NCBI GenBank assembly: GCA_946414025.1
Contig: CAMKMX010000003.1
Coordinates: 1 to 64,000, forward strand
Source of the DNA: an uncultured Fibrobacter sp.
Lineage (GTDB): Bacteria; Fibrobacterota; Fibrobacteria; Fibrobacterales; Fibrobacteraceae
Reading direction: 5' to 3'
Length of the DNA stretch: 64,000 nucleotides
Positions 31,933-39,776 of the stretch are shown piece by piece (within the stretch, counting starts at the first letter, position 1; every line of letters starts with the position of its first letter). The position numbers were made by a program, and so were the translations under genes. The notes below the pieces were generated by a model. That model was not told the DNA's origin, ran no database searches, and worked only from the letters and a program-made list of their open reading frames with translations.

Positions 31933-32053
31933 TCCCCGAAAAACAAGTCCCAGAACCCCATAAGGGCGTTTTAGAAACATTAACAAGACCGAATCACATT
32001 TGAAAAATATATTTTTCGAATGCAGGCACATTGTCATTCAGGAGGAGTGTCAC

Positions 32054-35000
32054 ATGAAAAAAATGTGGAAGGGCATTTTGTCCCTATTCGTCGGGATTGC
32101 AATTATCAGTTGCGCCGGTACTGATTCTTCGGCACAAAAGAAGGGACATGATAATTCGAACCTGGTCAAGGCAGGGACGCCTGCCGCGGACAGCCTTGTC
32201 TCTGGGATGACTGAATTCGCCCGTTCAATATTCAAGGGAACTTTCGATTCCATTCCGGGGGATTATTACTACCACGTGACCGACGGCAGGATTGACTCGC
32301 TGTTCAAAAAGGAAGGCGGACAGTACAAGCCTATCATTTCTATCGACTACGACTTCATCGTCGGGCAAAGCGGCTTTGAACTAAAAAAAAACAATTACAG
32401 TTACTTTATAAAGGAAGGCGTTTTAACACAAGAGGTTGATTTCCCAAAATATTCCAAAGCATATTGGAGCAACGGGAAAACAAAAGCCATAATGACAGGT
32501 CTCCTTTATAGGGACGACCAAGGCGTTTTTCAAGTAGATAGCGGGCTTTCCGAAATATATTTTGAAAACGGGAAAATCAAAGAGCAGAACGACTGGAAGG
32601 ACAAGCAGCTTATTGTAAGCAAAGTATGGAACGAGAATGGTATATTGATAACAGAATTAGATTTCCCTAAATATGTCAAGGCGTATTGGGACAACGGAAA
32701 GCCCAAAGCTGTAATGACAGGAGTCCTTTATAGAAGTAATCAGAGCAATATCGCGATGGATAGCGGGCACTCGGAAATTTATTTTGAAAACGGGAAAATT
32801 AATCAGCAAAATGACTGGAAAGGCAAAAAACTTATTGCACAAAAAGAATGGAACGAAAAAGGAACTTTGACAAAAGAATTTGAATTCCCAAAATATTACA
32901 AGGAATATTGTGATGACGGGAAGCCAAAAATCGTATCGACAGGACTCCTTTACAAAGATGACCAAGGCAATTTCTCTGTGGATAGCGGACACTCGGAAAT
33001 ATATTTTGAAAACGGAAAAATCAAAGAACAGAACGAATGGAAAGACAAGCAGGTTGTTGCAAACAAGACATGGAACGAAAACGGGGTGTTGACACTTGAT
33101 ATAGATTTCCCTAAATATGCCAAGATGTATTGGGACAACGGAAAACCCAAAGAGGTATTGACCGGACTCCTTTATAAAAATGATCGAGGTTCCATCCGTG
33201 CGGACAGCGGGCATTCCGAAATATATTTTGAAAACGGGCAAATCAAAGAGCAGAACGACTGGAAGGATAAGCAGATCATTGCAAGTAAGCTGTGGAATGA
33301 AAACGGGGTGTTGATAACAGATTTTATTTCCTACAAATATGCCAAGATATACTGGGATAACGGGAATTTAAAGGGTGTAATAACAGGTTCTCTTTATGTT
33401 GATGATCGAGGTAATTTCGTAGTGGACAGCGGTCACACGGAATCCTATTTTGAAAATGGAAAGATTAGAGAGCAAATCGATTGGAAAGACAAACAGGTTG
33501 TTGCAAACAAGACATGGAACGAAAACGGGGTGTTGACACTTGATATAGATTTCCCTAAATATGCCAAGATGTATTGGGACAACGGAAAACCAAAAGAGGT
33601 ATTGACCGGACTCCTTTATAAAAACGATCAAGGCTTCATCCGCGTGGACAGCGGGCATTCCGAAATATATTTTGAAAACGGGAAATTCAACGAAAAAAAT
33701 GAATGGAAGGACAAACTGCTTATTGCAAGCAAAGTATGGAACGAGAATGGAATATTGATAAAAGAATTAGATTTCCCTAAATATGCCAGGATGTATTGGG
33801 ACAACGGAAAACCAAAAGAGGTATTGTCCGGGCTCCTTTATAAAAATGATCGAGGCAATTTCGAATTGGACAGCGGGCATTCCGAAATTTATTTCGAAAA
33901 TGGAAAAATCAAAGAACAAAATGACTGGAAGAATAAGCAACCTGTGGCAAGCAAGCAATGGAACGAAAACGGAGTATTGATAAAAGAATTAGATTTTCCA
34001 AAATCTATCAAAACATACTGGAACAACGGAAAGCCCAAAAGCGTAGCGATAGGTCTTCTTTATAAAGATGATCAGGGCGACATTCGCGTGGACAGCGGGC
34101 GCTCGGATATATATTTCGAAAATGGCAAAATCAAAGAGCAGAACGATTGGAAGGACAAACAATTCGTTGCACAAAAAATATGGAACGAAAGAGGGGTGAT
34201 AACATTTGATCTAAATTTCCCCAAATATGTCAAGGAATACTGGGACAATGGAAAGCCAAAAAGCGTAGCAATAGGTCTCCTTTATAGAGTTGATCAAGGC
34301 CCTATCAAAGTGGATAGCGGACATTCCGAAATATATTTCGAAAACGGAAAAATCAAACAACAATGCGACTGGAAGAATAAGCAACCTATAGCGAACAAGC
34401 AATGGAACGAAAACGGCGTACTATTAGTAGAACTAAATTTTCCAAAGTCTTTCAAAGCATACTGGGACAACGGAAAGCCTAAGGCTATATTGACAGGAGT
34501 CCTTTATAGGGATAATCAAGGCAATATCGAGGTGGATAGCGGGCATTCCGAAATATATTTTGAAAATGGACAAATTAAAGAGCAGAACGACTGGAAAAAC
34601 AAGCAGATTGTTACGAATAAAACATGGAACGAAAACGGCGTATTGACAGTTGATATAGATTTCCCAAAACATATCAAAGGATATTGGGATAACGGGAAAT
34701 TAAAAGGGATAATGACAGGTTTGCTTTATAGAGATGACCAAGGAAACTTCCATTTAGATAGTGGACACTCGGAAGCATATTTCGAAAATGGACAAATCAA
34801 AGAGCAGAACGACTGGAAGGACAAGCAGATTGTTGCAAACAAAACATGGAACGAAAAAGGGGTATTGACAGTTGATATAAATTTACCAAAATATTCCAAA
34901 TGGTATTGGGATGACGGAAGATTAGAACAAATTGCCACAGGTGTCCTTTATAGAGACGACCAAGGCGTCATCCGCGTGGACAGCGGGCGCTCGGAGGTAT

Positions 35001-36274
35001 ATTTCGAAAACGGAAAAATTAAAGAACAAAACGACTGGAAGGACAAACAGCCCACTGTAAGCAAGCGATGGAACGAAAACGGAATACTAACAGTAGATTT
35101 TATTTTCCCAAAATATTATGAATTATATTGGGACAACGGAAATATAAAAGAAATAGCAACAGGACTCCTTTATAGAGACGACAAAGGCAATTTTGAAGTG
35201 GATAGCGGACACACGGAGACTTATTTCGAAAATGGAGGAATTCAGCGAATATCCGTCTGTAATAACAAACAACTCATTGCATACAAGCAATGGAACGAAA
35301 ACGGAACCGTAAAGAAGGAAGGTGTCGTAGCAAAAGGATTTCATAAGGAATACTTCCCTAACGGCAAAATCTCTGTGGATATTTCAGGAAAATTCCACTA
35401 CGATGACAATTGGGGCATAATTCTCGAAAACGCCATCGATAAACAATGGAACGAAAACGGGATTCTAACAGATGAAATCCTTTTCCCAAAATACGCAAAG
35501 TTTTATTCCGACAGCGGAGCCCTTGATTCTGAATTGGAGGGAACCTTATACTACGATGAAGAGAAGGAAATCCAGGTACAGGATGGCACAAAAAAATGGT
35601 ATCGCGATAACGGGAAATTATGGAGCCTTCGAATCTATAAGGAGAAAAAGTTAGTTAGTAAAAAGAAGTGGTATAAAAACGGAAATCTAGACGAGGAAGG
35701 GGACGCATCAAAAGGATTTTATAGGAGTTACCATTCGGACGGTAAACTCTATATGAATGTATTAGGCAAATTTCATTATAACAACAAAGGATTCTTTGAG
35801 AACATAATCTTGGAGAATGCCACCCAAAAGTGGTGGGGCACAAATGGGAATCTTAAAAAAGAGATTGTTTTCCCGAAATATGTAAAAGAATATTCCGATA
35901 ACGGAACCCTTGTCAAAGAACTAGAGGGAACGTTGTATTATGACGACCAGGATGAAATCCAGGTACAGGACGGCTTCAAAAAAGAATATTCCGATAAAGG
36001 GAAATTAACGGTACAAAAAAATTACAAAGGAAAAAAGCTTGTCCGCAAGACCGTATGGAGAGAAAACGGCAATATATTCATTTCTGCGGAGCTGCCAGAC
36101 CGCTACAGGGAATTTTACAATGATGGAAAAATCAGAACCGAAGTTATCGGAGTCATCGTCGAAGAAGACGACTCGTTCAGAATAAAGGACGGAACATACA
36201 AAGAATACGATTTCAACGGCAAAGTTACCTACACCGCAACCTACGAGGATTTTCAGAGAATTTCTGAAAAGTGA
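32054..36274 (+). CDS. Giant lipoprotein with 13+ 74-residue MORN-like repeats
   Basis: 1406 residues. MKKMWKGILSLFVGIAIISC is a lipoprotein signal (Cys20). The middle carries 13 units of about 74 residues (222 bp), each with YFENGKIKEQNDWKDKQ, KTWNENGVL, FPKYAKMYWDNGKPKEV, TGLLYKNDQG and DSGHSEI, which fit the MORN_2/YwqK-type pattern. A C-terminal part (about 1060-1406) has diverged repeats with AKFYSDSGAL, NGNLKKEI, FYNDGKIRTEV. Two segments at about 33050-33180 and 33494-33620 are almost identical at DNA level, exactly two periods apart. Presumably surface-exposed beta-solenoid; ligand unknown. AGGAGGAGTGTCAC precedes the ATG. Lower G+C than the housekeeping genes. Confidence 0.8.
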   Translation: MKKMWKGILSLFVGIAIISCAGTDSSAQKKGHDNSNLVKAGTPAADSLVSGMTEFARSIFKGTFDSIPGDYYYHVTDGRIDSLFKKEGGQYKPIISIDYDFIVGQSGFELKKNNYSYFIKEGVLTQEVDFPKYSKAYWSNGKTKAIMTGLLYRDDQGVFQVDSGLSEIYFENGKIKEQNDWKDKQLIVSKVWNENGILITELDFPKYVKAYWDNGKPKAVMTGVLYRSNQSNIAMDSGHSEIYFENGKINQQNDWKGKKLIAQKEWNEKGTLTKEFEFPKYYKEYCDDGKPKIVSTGLLYKDDQGNFSVDSGHSEIYFENGKIKEQNEWKDKQVVANKTWNENGVLTLDIDFPKYAKMYWDNGKPKEVLTGLLYKNDRGSIRADSGHSEIYFENGQIKEQNDWKDKQIIASKLWNENGVLITDFISYKYAKIYWDNGNLKGVITGSLYVDDRGNFVVDSGHTESYFENGKIREQIDWKDKQVVANKTWNENGVLTLDIDFPKYAKMYWDNGKPKEVLTGLLYKNDQGFIRVDSGHSEIYFENGKFNEKNEWKDKLLIASKVWNENGILIKELDFPKYARMYWDNGKPKEVLSGLLYKNDRGNFELDSGHSEIYFENGKIKEQNDWKNKQPVASKQWNENGVLIKELDFPKSIKTYWNNGKPKSVAIGLLYKDDQGDIRVDSGRSDIYFENGKIKEQNDWKDKQFVAQKIWNERGVITFDLNFPKYVKEYWDNGKPKSVAIGLLYRVDQGPIKVDSGHSEIYFENGKIKQQCDWKNKQPIANKQWNENGVLLVELNFPKSFKAYWDNGKPKAILTGVLYRDNQGNIEVDSGHSEIYFENGQIKEQNDWKNKQIVTNKTWNENGVLTVDIDFPKHIKGYWDNGKLKGIMTGLLYRDDQGNFHLDSGHSEAYFENGQIKEQNDWKDKQIVANKTWNEKGVLTVDINLPKYSKWYWDDGRLEQIATGVLYRDDQGVIRVDSGRSEVYFENGKIKEQNDWKDKQPTVSKRWNENGILTVDFIFPKYYELYWDNGNIKEIATGLLYRDDKGNFEVDSGHTETYFENGGIQRISVCNNKQLIAYKQWNENGTVKKEGVVAKGFHKEYFPNGKISVDISGKFHYDDNWGIILENAIDKQWNENGILTDEILFPKYAKFYSDSGALDSELEGTLYYDEEKEIQVQDGTKKWYRDNGKLWSLRIYKEKKLVSKKKWYKNGNLDEEGDASKGFYRSYHSDGKLYMNVLGKFHYNNKGFFENIILENATQKWWGTNGNLKKEIVFPKYVKEYSDNGTLVKELEGTLYYDDQDEIQVQDGFKKEYSDKGKLTVQKNYKGKKLVRKTVWRENGNIFISAELPDRYREFYNDGKIRTEVIGVIVEEDDSFRIKDGTYKEYDFNGKVTYTATYEDFQRISEK

Positions 36275-36298: not shown

Positions 36299-37846
36299 CT
36301 AGAACTTCGTATCTACAGGATTGAACTGGAGCTGGATTCCCGAGCGGATCCAGCCGTCCATGCCGTCTTTGCCGGGGATGTTGGCCAGGTTCTCGTACTT
36401 GCGGCCTCCGCCACCCAGATAGATGCGCAACCATTCGTTAAACTTGAGACGGTATTGAATGTCCAACATGTATTGGGCTTCTTCCACACCGGAGGTTGCA
36501 CCTTCTACATCGACGGCGATGTCGTAATCGGTGTAGAGTTCCTTGTCGCCCTGACGGAGCCACGCCGCCGTAATGGCAAGAGAGTGGTCGCCATAGGTCC
36601 AGCCCAGTTCAAGCCACAGGTCCAGAGCGTCTGCGCCACGACGGTAGCCCACGGGATAGTCCACAAAATAGGCGTCGGCATAACCGGGGTCTCCCTGCTC
36701 GCGGTAATTGCTGCGGTAGTTCCGGCGACTGGTGTACTTCAGGAGCGGAAGCCTGCTGTTGTTGGCGGCGGGGTCGGTGCGGACCACCTCGAAACGCCAG
36801 GAGTATTCGCCAAAGCGGTTGGTCTTGACCTGATGGAAATAGCCCGCCATGTAATTCAAGATGGAACGGTTGGTGCCCTTGTCGTCGTCTTCGCCTACGG
36901 GGCTGTTGATGTCTTCCATGTTGATCTGCCCGTAGAATTTGGCACCGTTGGCGGTCTTGTAGCCCAATTCAAAGGACGTCATGGCAGAGGTGTAACCCGT
37001 GGCGTAGTTGTCGTGCCAATAGATGAAGGGGCTGATGGAACGGAATTCCAGGGCCTTGCCCCCCACCATACTCTGCTCCACCACGTAGGCCCAGAACTTG
37101 TTGGTCTCTACGCCAAAGCGGTGGAACACCAGGTTCTTGACGTTGTCAGTGTAGGTGCGGTTCCGCTGGTTCGATACCTGCCGGCCGGGGTCGGTGCATT
37201 TCTGGTCGTAGGCCTCGGTGCCTACCGGCGGGCAGCCCGTAGAGTGGTCCGTCACATCACCAAAAAGCCAGGGGTTCAGGGAGCTGAGCATGAAATCGTA
37301 ACGGAAAATGCCGGGGGCGAATTTCCAGTGGACACCGTCGTGGTAGGGCGCACCTCCCATCAAGATGTCGTTCTTGGAGATTTTCAGGTCGTCGGGGCTG
37401 AAGCGGCCGAACTGCACGAAACCCACGCCGTTGTTCCACTTGGCATAGGCGTTGTTAGGGACGTTGATATCCAGCTCACTGGGCTTGTAGGTGAAATTCG
37501 TTTTCCAGTCGTCCTGATACCAGGCCTCCAGATCTTTGCGGAGGGGCGCTTCCAGAAGCACCTGGAAATCCTTGTAACCTGCACGAAAACTGAGGGTAAA
37601 GAAGGGATGAACCGACTCTTCGTAACTGCGGGCGTTTTCCAGCGGGATGCGAAGCCCCCGCCAGTTGCGACCGTACCAGTCCGCCGTATCGACAGCAAAC
37701 TCCGGGTCCGTAGGGCCGCCGTTGAGCCCGATGTCGAAATCCGTGCCTATCTGGAAATAGCCGGTTTCGCCATAGGCGGAGACGGACAGGCCCAGAGAGG
37801 CTGCCGCCAGTGTCAAAATCGCAAATTTGGAGCGAATTGCACCCAT
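36299..37846 (-). CDS. Outer-membrane beta-barrel protein
   Basis: 515 residues from ATG 37846. MGAIRSKFAILTLAAASLGL-SVSAYGE is a signal peptide; the mature protein is rich in alternating aromatic/polar strands (FIYWHDNYATGYTSAMTSFE, DALDLWLELGWTYGDHSLAI) and ends FNEWLRIYLGGGG ... LQFNPVDTKF, as typical barrels end. One Cys pair (CPPVGTEAYDQKC) may form a disulphide. A capsule-assembly Wzi-like barrel is one possibility that I cannot confirm. The track start 38122 runs through repeats. TAGATT lies 8 nt before ATG. Confidence 0.7.
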   Translation of the reverse strand: MGAIRSKFAILTLAAASLGLSVSAYGETGYFQIGTDFDIGLNGGPTDPEFAVDTADWYGRNWRGLRIPLENARSYEESVHPFFTLSFRAGYKDFQVLLEAPLRKDLEAWYQDDWKTNFTYKPSELDINVPNNAYAKWNNGVGFVQFGRFSPDDLKISKNDILMGGAPYHDGVHWKFAPGIFRYDFMLSSLNPWLFGDVTDHSTGCPPVGTEAYDQKCTDPGRQVSNQRNRTYTDNVKNLVFHRFGVETNKFWAYVVEQSMVGGKALEFRSISPFIYWHDNYATGYTSAMTSFELGYKTANGAKFYGQINMEDINSPVGEDDDKGTNRSILNYMAGYFHQVKTNRFGEYSWRFEVVRTDPAANNSRLPLLKYTSRRNYRSNYREQGDPGYADAYFVDYPVGYRRGADALDLWLELGWTYGDHSLAITAAWLRQGDKELYTDYDIAVDVEGATSGVEEAQYMLDIQYRLKFNEWLRIYLGGGGRKYENLANIPGKDGMDGWIRSGIQLQFNPVDTKF

Positions 37847-37952: not shown

Positions 37953-38076
37953 ACAAGAGGAACGCGAGCGGCCTCCGTGAGCGACAACCGACTCATATTA
38001 ATGAGTCGTGGTCGCGAGAGCGACTGAGATTCCGGAGACGCCGCCCCACAAACAACGAAGGAGCGGCAATTAAAAA

Positions 38077-38116
38077 CCTTCTTGTATCGAAGACAATTGT
38101 CTTCGATACAAGAAGG
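38077..38116. repeat. Perfect 40-bp palindrome
   Basis: First half CCTTCTTGTATCGAAGACAA, second half its exact reverse complement, no loop. Confidence 0.95.
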
Positions 38117-38201
38117 GATCACCCAGGCAGGGAGACCCAGGTGATCCCTCGTGTTGTGGTGGATACGCTTGCGCGTATCCGGTGTGTGTGTTAGTTAAGG
38201 A

Positions 38202-39776
38202 CTAGAAAGAATCCAGCTTGAAACCACCATTGCGGAGGAACGCCGGCACATCGTAATCCACGCCGTTGGTCTTCAGGGAACCTTCGGCATAGTTCGTGTT
38301 GCGGGGTTCTTCCACTTCGCGAGCAGGCATTTCAGCCATGGTCTGGTGGGTGTAAGCCGAAGCGCCGTAGTCTCCGTTAGAGAGCTGGTCCATGTCGGCG
38401 ATGCCGGGCATTTCTTCCGTTTCAGGAAGCGTTGCCGTGGCAATGCCTTCGGGCATCATCTTCTCTTCGAAGGCGGGGGCCTGGGCGTTGAACTGTGCAG
38501 AGGCAAAGTCAGCGGCAGGAGCCTGGGCTTCGGTCTGGGGAAGAGTGTCCATAGGAATGGTCAGGGACTCACCAGCAGGCATGGCGACCGTCGTGGGCTG
38601 GGCAAGCGCCACGAAGTTGGTAGCCGTCGGGCGCGGAGTCGCAGCTACAGGCTGGGTCTGCTGGAAACTAGCCGGACCGCCGATGGAATTTACCAGGTCC
38701 TGCATCTTGGGAGCAGCAGGGGCCATAGGCACGTCGGCAGCGCTTGCAAACATAGGCTTCATCTCGGAACCAGAAGTTCCACCGCAACCGGTAGCGATAA
38801 CGGTGATGCTCACCTTGTCGCCCAGTTCCGGCAGCAGGATATCGCCGATAATAATGTTCGGGTCGCCCATCTCGCCCACTGCGTCATAGAGATGATCCAT
38901 AGCTTCTTCGGTTTCCAGCATGGAGAAGTTTTCGCCATGAGCAACATTCACCAGCACGCCAGAAGCACCTTCCACGTTCACTTCTTCCAGAAGTGGAGAG
39001 GAAAGGGCCATATCCACAGCCTTGATGCCGCGGCCTTCGCCTTCGGCAATGCCCGTACCCATAAGGGCGGCACCGCCATTAGACATAACCGTCTTCACGT
39101 CGGCAAAGTCCGCATGGATAAGACCGTGGCGGAACATAATGGCGCAAATACTGCGAACGGCGTTACCGAGGATTTCATCGGTAAGCTTGAAAGCACCTTC
39201 CATCGTCATTTTCTTGTCCGTACTTTCCACGGTGGCGGCAAGTTTCTTGTTGTCCACCACGATCATGGTGTCCACGGCCTTTCTCAGAGCCTGAATGCCA
39301 CCTTCGGCATTGCGCTTGCGGACAGGGCCTTCGTAACGGAAGGGCTTGGTGACCACAGCAACGGTAAGAATGCCCAATTCACGGGCAATAGAGCCTACCA
39401 CCGGAGCAGCACCCGTACCTGTACCACCGCCCATACCGGCAGTGATAAACACCAGGTCAGCGCCCTTCATGGCTTCCTTCAGGTCGTCGATGTTCTCTTC
39501 GGCGGCCTTGCGACCAATTTCGGGCTTGGCACCTGCACCAAGGGTCTTGGTGGTCTTCTGGCCAATGGCGATCTTGTGGTCCGCCTTGCTCAAGTCCAGA
39601 GCCATGGCGTCGGTATTGACGGCGTAGTATTCCACGCCTTCAATATTCATATCGACCATGCGGTTCACGGTGTTGCCACCGGCGCCGCCCACACCAAAGA
39701 CCTTGACCTTCGCGTTGTTGATGGTTGAATCATCCATCAGGATGTGTGAGGTTGGGGTTATGTCGAATTCACTCAT
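38202..39776 (-). CDS. ftsZ: Cell division protein FtsZ
   Basis: 524 residues. Tubulin-like GTPase that forms the Z ring at midcell. VKVFGVGGAGGNTVNRMVDM and AGMGGGTGTGAAPVVG (tubulin signature) bind GTP; the T7-loop half is RHGLIHADFADVKTVM. Residues 335-505 are a Pro/Ala/Thr-rich linker, longer than in E. coli, then the conserved tail YDVPAFLRNGGFKLDSF (FtsA/membrane-anchor binding site). Ribosome site GGGAGACAAACT. Last gene of the dcw cluster, 35 bp after ftsA. Confidence 0.98.
   Translation of the reverse strand: MSEFDITPTSHILMDDSTINNAKVKVFGVGGAGGNTVNRMVDMNIEGVEYYAVNTDAMALDLSKADHKIAIGQKTTKTLGAGAKPEIGRKAAEENIDDLKEAMKGADLVFITAGMGGGTGTGAAPVVGSIARELGILTVAVVTKPFRYEGPVRKRNAEGGIQALRKAVDTMIVVDNKKLAATVESTDKKMTMEGAFKLTDEILGNAVRSICAIMFRHGLIHADFADVKTVMSNGGAALMGTGIAEGEGRGIKAVDMALSSPLLEEVNVEGASGVLVNVAHGENFSMLETEEAMDHLYDAVGEMGDPNIIIGDILLPELGDKVSITVIATGCGGTSGSEMKPMFASAADVPMAPAAPKMQDLVNSIGGPASFQQTQPVAATPRPTATNFVALAQPTTVAMPAGESLTIPMDTLPQTEAQAPAADFASAQFNAQAPAFEEKMMPEGIATATLPETEEMPGIADMDQLSNGDYGASAYTHQTMAEMPAREVEEPRNTNYAEGSLKTNGVDYDVPAFLRNGGFKLDSF

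Follow-up and report, generated by a model that had tools for sequence, protein, structure and literature searches.

The described elements closest to the 40-bp palindrome analysed here are the ftsZ-DE RNA family (Rfam RF02985), intrinsic terminators, and REP/BIME repeats. The ftsZ-DE family is represented by a covariance model of 69 positions with a gathering cut-off of 72.2 bits, an intrinsic terminator by a stable stem-loop followed by a T tract, and REP/BIME repeats by multiple dispersed copies. In E. coli, most inverted repeats at gene ends belong to intrinsic terminators (PMC6060812), and imperfect inverted repeats (quasipalindromes) can be made perfect by template switching (PMC7202029). 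The palindrome lies in a stretch of 64,000 nucleotides (the window) from a Fibrobacter assembly of 2.52 Mb in 56 contigs which is 82% complete. Its surroundings belong to the end of the dcw cluster, whose genes other than ftsZ were recognised by eye from their translations:

38202-39776, minus strand: ftsZ, the last gene of the dcw cluster
38112-38180, minus strand: ftsZ-DE RNA (RF02985), full length, covariance model match of 83.1 bits
38161-38180, minus strand: ftsZ-DE hairpin 1, GGATACGCGCAAGCGTATCC, from sequence and fold
38115-38148, minus strand: ftsZ-DE hairpin 2, terminator-like on its own, with two C residues (38115-38116) common to hairpin 3
38077-38116, minus strand: hairpin 3, the perfect palindrome of 40 bp, whose RNA would fold into a stem of 18 bp around the loop AAUU, from inverted-repeat search and fold
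38068-38076, minus strand: T-rich tail TTTTTAATT directly 3' of hairpin 3, from sequence
37977-38020, minus strand: REP-like hairpin unit, the neighbour of the palindrome and part of a rearranging module in relatives
36299-37846, minus strand: next gene, 515 aa with a signal-peptide-like start and no Pfam match, found behind ftsZ genus-wide

The order on the minus strand is therefore ftsZ stop codon, CA-rich linker, hairpin 1, hairpin 2, palindrome, TTTTTAATT and REP-like unit. The CA-repeat linker between ftsZ and hairpin 1 (ACACACACAC, 38181-38200, minus strand) lies outside the Rfam model and is kept in nearly all species compared. Further away, the plus strand carries an ORF of 1424 aa (32000-36274) made up of numerous repeats that resemble one another, of the form YWDNGKPKAV...DSGHSEIYFENGKIKEQNDWKDKQ. 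A match to the HIV-1 SL4 family at 38009-38028 stayed under the family cut-off and was put down to chance, and a search for plasmid relatives found none.

The palindrome as a third hairpin behind ftsZ

The palindrome (CCTTCTTGTATCGAAGACAATTGTCTTCGATACAAGAAGG, 38077-38116) is built from two arms of 20 nt each (38077-38096 and 38097-38116) which are 100% complementary with 0 nt between them, in agreement with the sequence-only reading that had described it as free of loop and mismatch. Its near end is reached 85 nt after the ftsZ stop codon, within one base of the 86 bp given in that reading, and the other hairpins that had been noticed nearby are represented by the two hairpins of ftsZ-DE and one REP-like repeat. 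The palindrome is not a product of chance, as in a 464 kb sample of the genome (about 18% of the assembly) the runner-up among perfect inverted repeats with loops of up to 10 nt has arms of 15 bp, and a first-order Markov null of equal size reaches a maximum arm of 11 bp versus the 20 bp found here. The 40-mer has one copy in the genome. It was also considered as a dispersed element and rejected, given this single copy and a looser pattern, CTTCTTG..CAAGAAG, that is about as frequent in the genus as a control. The perfect dyad is a feature of this one genome because the loop of the hairpin, AATT, is self-complementary; close relatives keep the hairpin with loops that are of odd length or non-palindromic. 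That the DNA shows no loop is thus incidental, as the 4 nt of the loop happen to read AATT.

On the ftsZ strand, hairpin 3 is an 18 bp stem with the loop AATT followed by a T tract, and both the fold and the pairing of the stem mark it as the stable stem-loop that an intrinsic terminator requires (z = -10.1 for the fold of the region). The U tract directly after the stem, UUUUUAAUU in this genome, is the best T tail of the group. The terminator-like score of d = 41.8 is the second-best in the 64 kb window by the formula of d'Aubenton Carafa and colleagues, with the caveat that its parameters are those of E. coli. Hairpin 3 follows the last dcw gene, but the gene after it (36299-37846) is read in the same direction. 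Taken together, the palindrome is probably a second hairpin of the intrinsic-terminator or 3'-end type which in one clade follows ftsZ-DE where the ftsZ (dcw operon) transcript would end. Among the functions suggested by the sequence-only reading, the end of transcription of the division operon has the best support, with the position after the last dcw gene, the T tract, the high score and the compensatory changes in the stem all pointing towards it. We infer transcription of the region, its termination and its protection from decay from the sequence.

The palindrome overlaps the RF02985 model by only 5 nt, and the remainder lies outside it. The ftsZ-DE RNA itself was found in 37/37 Fibrobacter genomes searched with the family, 36 of them above the cut-off, and in 0 of 24 genomes outside Fibrobacter. 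As its hairpin 2 together with its own T-rich tail has a terminator score above 0 in all 43 sequences compared, two tandem terminators, hairpin 2 of ftsZ-DE and hairpin 3, are the likely arrangement. RNA polymerase leaving ftsZ would make the two ftsZ-DE hairpins first, the second of which is already terminator-like, and transcripts that read through would then form hairpin 3, with U5AAUU after the stem in this genome, which would stop transcription and leave a very stable 3' end. The terminator-like character of hairpin 2 in every species compared also means that hairpin 3 may be redundant. A “hand-over”, in which the rise of hairpin 3 went along with loss of the U tract of hairpin 2, was considered as well; it vanished once stem ends were defined uniformly across genomes, all 43 sequences then scoring above 0 with an nT in the clade that is only slightly lower (3.88 vs 4.14).

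In six genomes (G005, G009, G011, G013, G024 and G030), the downstream gene starts just 21-33 nt after ftsZ-DE, often with a T run and a TAnATT-like box right before the ATG. This short gap and the box suggest that ftsZ-DE may also lie in or beside the promoter or leader of the downstream gene.

Hairpin 3 across Fibrobacter

The region behind ftsZ-DE was extracted from 43 genomes or loci. Hairpin 3 is present in G000, G002, G016, G021, G027, L003, L004, L005, L006, L008 and L010, and these 11 carriers form one clade in the FtsZ tree with 100/100 support, all 11 members of which have the hairpin. A separate hairpin of 14 bp is found in G032, elsewhere in the FtsZ tree, and the other 31 of the 43 genomes or loci have none at this position. 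The outer TTCTTG...CAAGAA does not change within the clade, but the inner stem and the loop do, and the length ranges from 11 bp (L008) to 24 bp (L003, L004 and L005); stems of 18 bp carry the loops AATT, AAA or GAA, and stems of 17 bp the loops AGG, GGA, GTAA or TTGA. In the seven rows of the clade that align without gaps in the stem, 119/119 cells are paired and 5/17 pairs are changed on both sides, compared to 37-47% paired cells and no double change in a control in which the partner was slid by 1-3 columns. Pairing that is held while the sequence and length of the stem and its loop change argues for an RNA hairpin as the kept feature and against a conserved DNA site. The sequence-only reading had named lack of conservation in close relatives as the outcome that would speak against it; the sequence is indeed not conserved, and what stands is the hairpin and its position, which are kept within one clade.

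The tail is less constant than the stem. In 7/11 members of the clade it is interrupted, being AT-rich, mostly TATTATAA or TATTATGA, and devoid of a T run, so that termination may be weak in these relatives. This makes protection of the 3' end a serious alternative, in which hairpin 3 acts as a stabilising or processing element of a transcript that ends at hairpin 2 or at some later point, either by blocking exonucleases or as an RNase III substrate that sets the level of ftsZ mRNA. The very long perfect stems of up to 24 bp would fit such a role, as would the broken T tails and a hairpin 2 that already scores as a terminator. By contrast, the best T tail of the group sits directly behind hairpin 3 in this genome, and as termination and stabilisation are compatible with each other, a role in stabilisation instead of termination is considered unlikely.

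A binding site for a dimeric protein, such as a nucleoid or SMC protein, or a cruciform with a function, both of which had been proposed from the sequence, is the least credible explanation and very improbable: the perfect 40-bp dyad would suit either one, and its symmetry alone would suffice for a cruciform, but the half-site is replaced between sister species and not kept even where ftsZ is about 98% identical, a search of the Fibrobacter relatives and of this genome found it neither conserved nor repeated, the 3-nt loops of close relatives break the central symmetry, and nothing supports a function for a cruciform.

Stem alleles and the neighbouring repeats

The extent to which the stem can change is best seen between sister species. 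G000 and L003 have ftsZ genes which are 97.7% identical and match at 96.3% where the 300 bp that follow can be aligned, yet the inner parts of the two hairpins show no relation (59.6% across 47 aligned positions). Likewise, L005 and L007, the latter identical in sequence to G021, share 98.7% identity in ftsZ and 96.7% downstream versus 65.2% in the hairpin. Two alleles can be told apart, allele A (TATCGAAGAC) in G000, G021 and L006, and allele B (CGTCTACGGGGACTCG) in L003, L004 and, slightly mutated, L005. Traces of both are found in two relatives: the array of L006 consists of the full A hairpin, a REP-like unit, and an orphan 3' arm of B with the tail of B, and in L004 the full B hairpin and a REP-like unit precede an orphan 3' arm that belongs to A and has an A-like tail. 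These orphan arms lie about 170-190 nt past the end of ftsZ-DE, between REP-like units.

Two unrelated alleles between matching flanks, with remnants of both in two relatives, point to local rearrangement of repeats. As the modules of the arrays are separated by direct repeats of the GACCGCTC type, a single deletion between two of them would in several cases turn one observed form into another, such as an L006-like array into the G000 form. This deletion scheme would account for the difference between sister species without DNA transfer between them, and recombination within the nearly identical ftsZ-DE is also possible. Transfer of the hairpin between species, considered as the sole cause of the two alleles, is possible, but given the compound arrays of L004 and L006, differential deletion is no less likely. 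The inner stem probably turns over fast through rearrangement of neighbouring repeat copies combined with template-switch correction of imperfect inverted repeats, and template switching may help to explain the close match of the arms. A bolder extension, possible but rather doubtful, is that hairpin 3 is a rapidly exchanged module: a local repeat array would hold a small set of perfectly paired alleles, and one of them would take the place of the whole stem next to ftsZ-DE, with array deletion and template switching rewriting both arms together. The 3' end of ftsZ mRNA would then change repeatedly in sequence and length and yet always form a near-perfect hairpin, which might adjust the output of ftsZ from strain to strain.

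The same processes could also have produced the palindrome as a non-functional by-product, formed next to REP-like units and kept by chance. The orphan 3' arms of the other allele in L004 and L006, the ability of template switching to perfect quasipalindromes, and the core of allele B, GACTCG..CGAGTC, which resembles the REP-like core, would be in line with such an origin. On the other hand, hairpin 3 is found at exactly the same place in 11/11 members of the clade, with paired changes and an AT-rich tail despite the rearranged DNA downstream, while the orphan second copies have no matching 5' arm. A palindrome kept by chance is therefore quite improbable.

The REP-like unit follows a hairpin pattern of CTCTCGCC, NN, CA, an 8 bp variable stem around a short loop, CTT, NN and GGCTCACG, which has matches in 38/41 Fibrobacter genomes and very few in a reversed control. 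Copies also occur at L106, L107, L125, L132 and many other loci of the genus. Among 46 distinct copies of 45 nt, 91.3% of the cells are paired and 8/12 pairs are changed on both sides, in a pairing register that was fitted, the first one tried giving 29.5% and the one a single base over giving the higher value. The unit has no Rfam match.

Comparison with known systems

The likeness to REP/BIME repeats lies in the surroundings of the palindrome, where hairpin units that are dispersed, and in some cases arranged in tandem at a spacing of about 95 bp, occur together with local rearrangement between short direct repeats. The palindrome itself differs from them in being single copy, only the neighbouring unit being dispersed, and no RAYT-type Y1 transposase (PF01797) that could belong to the REP-like units was found in this 82% complete genome.

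With ftsZ-DE, hairpin 3 shares the strand, the position after ftsZ and 5 nt of sequence. In contrast to ftsZ-DE, the family model of which stops before hairpin 3 and which is present in every Fibrobacter genome searched, hairpin 3 occurs only in one clade and in G032. The catalogued RNA is thereby extended by a clade-specific third hairpin, and the terminator-like hairpin 2 in every sequence compared suggests that ftsZ-DE acts where the transcript of the division operon ends.

Hairpin 3 resembles an intrinsic terminator in that a stem-loop (18 bp with a 4-nt loop) leads straight into a T tract, on the strand from which the last gene of an operon is read. It differs in a stem that is unusually long and perfect (17-24 bp in most relatives) at a modest G+C content, in a T tract that is broken in 7/11 relatives, and in its place directly behind another terminator-like hairpin. 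The locus is a small natural case in which both arms of a terminator-like hairpin are rewritten together between sister species. The palindrome is a clade-specific form of a known kind of element, attached to a known RNA family, and the exchange of the whole stem between sister species is the unexpected part.
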